This document shows, piece after piece, positions 47,385 through 49,812 of a DNA stretch of 64,000 nucleotides (positions within the stretch are counted from its first letter, which is position 1; each line of letters begins with the position of its first letter). The notes under the pieces were generated by a model, which saw nothing but the letters and a program-made list of their open reading frames with translations, did no database searches and was not told the DNA's origin. A program made the translations under genes and the position numbers. This DNA is from Setaria digitata (taxonomy: Eukaryota; Nematoda; Chromadorea; Rhabditida; Setariidae), in contig RCAB01000278.1 of the NCBI GenBank assembly GCA_003640385.1, forward strand, positions 20,373-84,372, in the 5' to 3' direction.

Positions 47385-49812
47385 ATGTCTCATCGTAAAT
47401 TTTCGGCTCCACGACATGGATCGATGGGTTTTACGCCAAAGAAGCGCTCGAAGCGCCATCGTGGGAAAGTTAAGGCATTCCCCAAGGATGATTCTTCAAA
47501 ACCAATCCATCTGACGGCGTTTATGGGCTTTAAAGCGGGCATGACCCATATTGTCCGTGAGGTATTTCATTCTGTTTTTCTTTAGTGCCGGATTAATGGA
47601 CAGTGCACAATGATGAGTTCAGCAAATATCATCTGAGTAACATGATTATTCCAAATGTTCCCTATTGGACTGAGTGCTTTACATTTGTCTCTGAACTCCT
47701 CATTCTTTGGTTCTGTGCTTATTACTGATATAATGATTACAGGTCGATAAGCCAGGATCAAAAGTTAATAAGAAAGAAGTTGTTGAAGCGGTTACAGTTT
47801 TAGAAACTCCTCCGATGGTTATCGTTGGTGTAGTGGGATACATCGATACACCTCGAGGTCCACGGCAATTCAAAACGGTGTGGGCCGAACATCTATCGGA
47901 AGATTGCCGCCGACGTTTCTACAAAAACTGGTACATTTATCCGGTTTCTCTTTTTTTTACGTAACTGTTAGAAGGTGTCATTTCTTAAAGTAGAGGTCGT
48001 TTTTAATTGATGAGTTTTATTGTTACAGTTGAAATTGACTAAATCAAAAAAGTAGTTTAAAGTTTGCACAGTCATTTGCAACGCATGAGTTGTTGGTGTG
48101 GTGGCTAGCGAAGCTGTGTGTCTGGATGTTGTGGGTTCAGATCCGGTGTGCTTATAACAAAAAAAAACTTGGAAGCCATGATGAGAGACTGTGAGTAGTC
48201 TTATTAATTGTGAAGATGACAACAGTCCATTTATGCTGCCTTCCTTCTGAGCTTTCATGTCTCTTCTTCAAATAATGAATTACTAAGGGAGCTCAAGTTG
48301 GTCACTTCAGTGTATGATGCTTGGTGTATGTAGCAAAATCGAGCATCTGAGAACAGACCTTCCGCTGTTACAAATTTTAGCGTAACATGAAGGCCATAGA
48401 AACAGCGTATGGAGCGAGGACCTTTAGTTCTTTGCTTTTACACTGTTAGAGTTCTCATATTCCATAGGAATTCGTCTAAGAAAAAGGCATTCCAAAAGCA
48501 TGCGAAGAAGTGGCAGGATGAGGACGGTATGAAATCGATACAAGCTGATTTGGCTAAGATGAAGAAATATTGTTCGATAATCCGTGTCATTGCACACACA
48601 CAGGTATGTTGTGTGGAACTATTTATCAGTGTGTAATCTAGTTCCTTTCCATTAAGTGCTCCACTGTCAAATTTATAGATGAAGGTCATGAAACATCGGG
48701 AGAAAAAGGCACACATTATGGAAATACAAATAAATGGTGGCACAGTTCCTGAAAAAGTTGACTGGGCTTACGAACACTTTGAAAAACAGGTAAATTTTCA
48801 AAAAAGGGAGAAAAATCATTTCTCAGCTCTGTCAACGGTGATTGCGAAATTTTCTTTATACAGGTGCCAATAGATTCGGTGTTTGCCCAAGATGAAATGA
48901 TCGATGTTATTGGTGTTACTAAGGGAAAGGGTTTCAAGGGTGTTACGAGTCGTTGGCATACGAAAAAACTCCCAAGGAAAACCCATAAAGGTCTTCGAAA
49001 GGTTAATGTTTTCTTTTTTTTTTTTCCTGGTTGAAATATGTGTCCACAGCGATTCGTTGGCAGTGATGTATCACACCTAATGAAAGTAGTGGACTGAACT
49101 TCAATGTGGAAGTAATGAAGGAGCTGAGCCTTTGAGTCATGCATATAATAAGGCGAAAGAGTTTTCTGACTCTGCTGCCAGCAGTAACTATACAGGGTAT
49201 AATTTAGGTTGCGTGTATCGGAGCCTGGCATCCATCTCGTGTACAATTTACTGTGGCTCGTGCTGGTCAGAAAGGTTATCATCATCGTACCGAAGTGAAC
49301 AAAAAAATATATCGTATAGGGAAATCATGTTTAACCGAAGAAGGTAAAAAAAATGGCGGTACGGAATATGACATTACGGAGAAGAGCATTAACCCCATGG
49401 TGAGTTATAAATTTCAAATCAGTTATACTACCCTTTACTGCATGATGATGACATCAGTCTGCAATTCAGTACTAATTTGTTGAAAACCGCACAAGACTGA
49501 ATGCAGTTAATCTAATACACTCTACCTGTCATATTTTTTCTATTTTAACTATTGAAATTGCAGGGAGGTTTCCCGCACTATGGACTGGTGAATCAGGACT
49601 TCGTTCTTATTCGCGGGTGTTGTATGGGTTCGAAAAAGAGACCTATTACATTAAGGAAATCGCTGATTGTGCAAACGAAGCGTTTCGCTTATGAAAAAAT
49701 TAATCTTAAATGGATAGATACTAGCTCGAAGTTTGGTCATGGACGGTTCCAAACACATGCAGAAAAGAAAGCATTCATGGGGAAGTTGAAGAAAGATTTT
49801 ATTGCTGCTTAA
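47385..49812 (+). CDS. rpl-3: 60S ribosomal protein L3 (uL3)
   Basis: Core large-subunit protein that binds the 28S rRNA near the peptidyl-transferase centre; predicted 396 aa against about 403 in mammals. Exons: 47385-47561, 47743-47930, 48468-48603, 48679-48789, 48864-49001, 49208-49399, 49564-49812, all in phase. Diagnostic stretches are the start [44 protein letters not shown], the central [38 protein letters not shown] and the C-terminal [21 protein letters not shown]. Codon use is less AT-biased than its neighbours, as expected for a highly expressed gene. TTATAG ends 15 bases before the ATG and may be the trans-splice acceptor. Introns 1 and 2 each hold a C/D-box snoRNA. Confidence 0.97.
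47605..47677 (+). ncRNA. C/D-box snoRNA in rpl-3 intron 1
   Basis: The order of elements is stem GCAC (47605-47608), C box ATGATGA (47610-47616), D' box CTGA (47633-47636), C' box ATGATTA (47642-47648), D box CTGA (47670-47673), closing stem GTGC (47674-47677). All four boxes are in place in a 73-base unit inside an intron of a ribosomal-protein gene. The guide before the D box (AATGTTCCCTATTGG) can pair over 14 positions, two of them G-U, with the conserved 28S segment CUAAUAGGGAACGU that precedes GAGCUGGGUUUAGACC. The target is inferred; no name is assigned. Confidence 0.72.
48171..48256 (+). ncRNA. SNORD83-like: C/D-box snoRNA, U83-like, in rpl-3 intron 2
   Basis: C box ATGATGA (48178-48184) and D box CTGA (48247-48250) are flanked by a terminal stem, GGAAGC (48171-48176) with GCTTTC (48251-48256), containing one G-U pair and one bulged C. 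The guide just before the D box, GCTGCCTTCCTT, is an exact complement of the universally conserved 18S stretch AAGGAAGGCAGC, predicting 2'-O-methylation of an adenosine there. From memory, vertebrate U83A/B carry the same guide and are also encoded in RPL3 introns. C' and D' boxes are degenerate (AAGATGA near 48213). Confidence 0.78.

Follow-up and report, generated by a model that had tools for sequence, protein, structure and literature searches.

Vertebrate U83 and yeast snR52 are the closest described counterparts of the box C/D small nucleolar RNA (snoRNA) candidate reported here. Human U83A and U83B lie in RPL3 introns 5 and 7, and a U83-like snoRNA of a sponge sits in RPP0, according to the excerpted text of PMC3412847. 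Transcription by RNA polymerase III (Pol III) is reported for the yeast gene, SNR52, whose 5' leader contains A and B boxes (PMC5356446, excerpt). The UM2 loci of Caenorhabditis elegans are transcribed from A/B-like boxes that precede the snoRNAs; transcription begins 9-13 bp ahead of box A and, in the case of CeN37, 70 bp ahead of the mature end (PMC2527325, excerpt). Ongoing mobility has been reported for intronic snoRNAs; within the excerpt of PMC3511168, a survey of eukaryotes describes no snoRNA of the putative introns of the last eukaryotic common ancestor as positionally stable that deep, and proposes 'constrained drift'. We analyzed a 64-kb stretch of Setaria digitata DNA (contig RCAB01000278.1; hereafter the window), in which an earlier sequence-only reading had placed a U83-like snoRNA within an intron of rpl-3. 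That reading had described the same guide in the same host gene as known for vertebrate U83, in agreement with the two human introns named above (PMC3412847).

As judged from its sequence, the element at 48170-48257 very probably serves as a box C/D guide snoRNA, in the same functional class as vertebrate U83 and yeast snR52. On the sense strand of rpl-3 intron 2, the parts follow one another as TGGAAGC-C-ATGATGA ... TGCTGCCTTCCTT-CTGA-GCTTTCA, so that a C box (RUGAUGA) and a D box (CUGA) stand beside a terminal stem. Box C/D guides are recognized by at least 10 nucleotides (nt) of ribosomal RNA (rRNA) complementarity directly 5' of the D or D' box; here 13 nt pair with the Rfam small-subunit (SSU) consensus. 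The sequence-only reading had listed both boxes, which are present, together with a 6-bp terminal stem and a 12-base 18S complement before the D box. The stem exists but is 7 bp long with one G.U pair, and the complement, perfect and adjacent to the D box as claimed, extends to 13 nt. Its overall proposal of a C/D guide snoRNA in a nematode rpl-3 intron is borne out by the boxes, the guide and the identity of the L3 protein encoded in the window, which by protein comparison shares 97% identity with the L3 proteins of Brugia pahangi and Elaeophora elaphi, 96% with that of Dirofilaria and 95% with that of Thelazia. These values point to a spirurid and most likely filarial host. Coordinates of all features are collected in Table 1.

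Table 1. Features of the rpl-3 locus and its intronic small-RNA candidates (positions in the window)
Feature	Position	Strand	Basis or detail
Predicted C/D-box snoRNA, U83/snR52 type, with terminal stem	48170..48257	+	boxes, stem, guide
C box ATGATGA	48178..48184	+	motif scan
D box CTGA	48247..48250	+	motif scan
Terminal stem TGGAAGC/GCTTTCA	48170-48176 / 48251-48257	+	7 bp, one being G.U
Guide, 13 nt, perfect complement to 18S AAGGAAGGCAGCA (SSU model positions 418-430)	48234..48246	+	Rfam SSU consensus
A-box-like TAGCGAAGCTG	48106..48116	+	0 mismatches to TRGYNNARNNG
B-box-like GGTTCAGATCC	48134..48144	+	2 mismatches to GGTTCGANTCC, 1 to GGTTCRANYCC
First TTTT 3' of snoRNA, nearest possible Pol III terminator	48375..48378	+	125 nt past D box
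rpl-3 (uL3), coding part, 7 coding exons	47385..49812	+	sequence and translation
rpl-3 introns (n=6)	47562-47742, 47931-48467, 48604-48678, 48790-48863, 49002-49207, 49400-49563	+	sequence and translation
rpl-3 intron 2, snoRNA host	47931..48467	+	537 bp; phase 2 within Trp codon of KNW
Second good C/D candidate, intron 6	49437..49507	+	C box 49445-49451, D box 49497-49500, 7-bp stem ACTGCAT/ATGCAGT
Weaker C/D-like candidate, intron 1	47605..47677	+	C box 47610-47616, CTGA 47670-47673, 4-bp stem; by eye

The guide adjoins the D box, and a 14th base is left unpaired with the SSU consensus. As the guide pairs with SSU model positions 418-430, its fifth position from the D box faces adenosine 422. 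The element has what defines the U83/snR52 functional class, a D-box guide to 18S AAGGAAGGCAGC with an adenosine at +5. We take the corresponding adenosine to be A468 in human and A420 in yeast; matching positions in print are chicken 18S-A429 and Neurospora Am417. If the snoRNA works as its sequence predicts, it would be freed from rpl-3 intron 2 by splicing and then trimmed by exonucleases, as is usual for intronic C/D snoRNAs, and would join the C/D proteins and fibrillarin. Its guide would pair with 18S AAGGAAGGCAGCA, and the D+5 rule predicts that it directs 2'-O-methylation of the fifth base, the adenosine at SSU model position 422. At this stage the finding contributes, for a filarial-type nematode, one guide together with the only 18S target predicted for it.

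The target was taken from the Rfam SSU consensus because no intact 18S was seen in this assembly, in which two 18S DNA queries returned only four short partial matches. These lie on contigs C101, C445, C105 and C413. The C445 piece, read around the match only, is a degenerate rDNA relic that keeps the target 12-mer and not the 13th base. The C101 piece, about 600 nt from the 5' part of 18S and likewise degenerate, has two bases that do not match the 12-mer. A search of IMG/VR with an 18S pattern gave no match.

Intronic sequence might assemble such an arrangement by chance. We scanned the six rpl-3 introns (1,237 bases) for an exact RTGATGA followed 50-110 nt downstream by CTGA, the stem having to score 6 or more. 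Under these criteria a candidate is present in two of the introns, compared with any candidate in 1 of 2,000 dinucleotide shuffles and two candidates in none. Across the 64-kb window, a stem score of 4 gave four matches on the plus strand (at three places, two of them in rpl-3 introns) and a score of 6 gave three, with none on the minus strand at either setting. A single copy of CTGCCTTCCTTCTGA, the guide with its D box, is present in the assembly (75,555,924 bases, 976 contigs), from which the reversed control is absent. A chance origin is further opposed by the terminal stem, the location on the gene strand and the host gene. In its favor, a gapped C box-guide-D box pattern was found in two IMG/VR contigs, alike by eye, that had no Rfam gathering matches. 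Given the shuffle and uniqueness results, we consider a chance arrangement exceedingly unlikely.

The element could also be a decayed or retroposed copy, with the working guide elsewhere. A low Rfam score (see below) would fit a pseudogene. Against this, the boxes, stem and guide are all intact, no second copy of the guide with D box exists in the assembly, and the 86-nt sequence has no other match at E ≤ 0.001. When up to two mismatches were allowed, the 16-mer was found at 38 sites in the assembly versus 24 for the control, giving no clear sign of a hidden family. The three single-mismatch sites lack a C box, as neither NTGATG nor NTGAWGA was present within 100 bases upstream of any of them. 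We consider a pseudogene very unlikely.

The C box, guide and D box CUGCCUUCCUUCUGA are shared with U83/SNORD83A/SNORD83B (Rfam snoU83, snoU83B and snoU83D), as are the targeted class of 18S adenosine and, with human U83, the host gene RPL3 (here rpl-3). Outside the boxes and guide there is little similarity to U83, and unlike the human U83A/U83B pair, the nematode snoRNA is present once, within the second of six introns. The guide and D box of yeast snR52 likewise align (UGCCUUCCUUCUGA); yeast snR52 has a second target, 25S Um2921, whereas no second guide was found in the nematode snoRNA.

Several results weigh against assigning the element to a working guide of this class. The sequence-only reading had called it U83-like and had proposed a covariance-model search; the name holds for boxes and guide, but the match to snoU83 (RF01179), although obtained, scored 35.1 bits, below the gathering threshold of 50 for family membership. 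No Rfam family reached gathering anywhere in the window. A genome search with RF01179 had no match; it scored 56 of 48,421 candidates, and the control was positive in 0 of 14 genomes. The predicted fold is barely more stable than that of shuffled sequences (z -1.21), nothing seen by eye clearly qualified as a D' box accompanied by a guide, and no second complement was present among the 608 SSU consensus positions compared. Finally, U83/SNORD83 is given without an rRNA target in PMC12288042 and in the excerpted text of PMC3412847; two other papers give a target.

Intron 2 is the longest of the six rpl-3 introns. Database L3 proteins of Dirofilaria (P0051) and Toxocara (P0019) are aberrant, and their divergence begins directly after KNW, which suggests that both genes have an intron at the position of intron 2 in the window. 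The presence of a U83-type guide in both nematode and vertebrate RPL3 could represent retention or a second arrival. Like the nematode element, the sponge U83-like snoRNA is a C/D snoRNA within an intron of a ribosomal protein gene, but its host is RPP0 rather than rpl-3; thus, as far as the excerpt of PMC3412847 goes, the U83 host gene is not fixed in animals. Should nematodes and vertebrates have inherited the RPL3 address from a common ancestor, snoRNA and host would form a pairing of long standing, against a background of mobility reported for intronic snoRNAs in excerpts of PMC3511168.

While the snoRNA looks like an ordinary C/D guide by sequence, the region upstream of it offers one testable oddity. 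Sequences resembling tRNA A and B boxes, newly noted here, lie 25-64 nt upstream of the snoRNA; Pol III transcription from them is only a lead. The boxes in intron 2 were scored against consensuses that we take to be TRGYNNARNNG for the A box and the two given in Table 1 for the B box. We surveyed 264 kb on both strands, comprising the window and 20 sampled 10-kb stretches, for B boxes with at most one mismatch to the looser consensus. Among the 11 B-box-like sites, only the one at 48134-48144 has a perfect A box 25-66 nt upstream (next best: one mismatch). With the stricter B box, 10 sites were present in the window and again only this one had a perfect A box. When the 100 nt upstream of the snoRNA were shuffled 2,000 times, a B box appeared in 1.4% and both boxes in 0.25%. 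These figures are post hoc, as visual inspection had turned up the motif first, and the 264-kb survey used a loosened B consensus.

One explanation is that Pol III transcribes the snoRNA from A and B boxes in an intronic leader that is then trimmed, as for UM2 loci and SNR52, and an extra or alternative transcript of this kind may be possible. The A/B-box-like motif just upstream of the snoRNA resembles the arrangement at C. elegans UM2 loci, one of which, CeN55, also lies within an intron of a protein gene (PMC2527325, excerpt), and that in the SNR52 5' leader (PMC5356446, excerpt). The B-box-like element ends 25 nt 5' of the snoRNA stem, and the A box lies 65-67 nt from the presumed mature 5' end, a distance comparable to the UM2 start and CeN37 geometry (PMC2527325). 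In addition, 217 nt separate the D box from the 3' splice site, versus 69 and 63 nt for the intron 1 and intron 6 candidates, which is suggestive, and no more, of a different expression mode.

Other features fit Pol III transcription poorly. The boxes are spaced 28 nt start to start (17-nt gap), shorter than the 33 bp of UM2 loci, for which the excerpt leaves the reference points unstated (PMC2527325), and than the 31-93 nt of yeast tRNA gene boxes. UM2 transcripts usually stop at an oligo-T tract (PMC2527325, excerpt), whereas the snoRNA 3' end has none nearby, the first TTTT beginning at 48375. No tRNA was detected at the A/B boxes by ARAGORN (bacterial code) or among Rfam matches to E 10, and the leader fold is barely better than shuffles (z -1.22). 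It is these misfits in spacing and terminator that keep Pol III transcription only a lead, and we regard it as a rather unlikely account of how the snoRNA is made. For SNR52, transcription by Pol III has been reported, while the nematode case is one of sequence resemblance.

The locus might combine both expression routes, with the snoRNA in an RPL3 intron as in vertebrates and its own Pol III-type promoter in the leader as in SNR52; we think this unlikely. Such a combination would be an ancient Pol III relic or a convergent gain, and would free the snoRNA from the expression of its host gene. Were the upstream boxes to work as a Pol III promoter, the functional homologue of SNR52 would, in an animal too, depend on Pol III, even though it is nested in an intron of a Pol II gene.

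Sources and parallels of the A/B boxes were also considered. A recent tRNA-derived repeat (short interspersed element) was rejected, since the 91-nt stretch holding the boxes has no other match at E ≤ 0.001. A C/D-like pattern downstream of another B-box-like site (L014) gave no convincing snoRNA by eye. At gathering, Rfam matched nothing in the 14 sampled 10-kb stretches scanned out of 20, and no tRNA was reported by ARAGORN (bacterial code) for any of the 20.

Other small-RNA candidates were seen in the rpl-3 introns. The intron 6 candidate, with exact boxes, has no complement of at least 9 nt among the 608 SSU consensus positions compared. That of intron 1 falls below the stem thresholds of both C/D scans, and its Rfam matches, the nematode family ceN109 among them, are all sub-threshold. 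An H/ACA scan of the introns yielded weak candidates only. A hairpin, GATGCT...AGCATC (window 48316-48347), lies in intron 2 downstream of the snoRNA and is possibly, on weak grounds, a piece of an H/ACA-like RNA.

Searches for relatives of rpl-3 in the viral-contig and genome-contig collections turned up no nematode locus, and a plasmid collection searched in near mode gave no match. Among prokaryote genomes, the only relative was one archaeal uL3. An IMG/VR contig of 3,136 bases (L003, 218-1441) encodes a nearly full-length L3 with 60% identity to nematode L3, and is perhaps a eukaryotic contig misfiled as viral.
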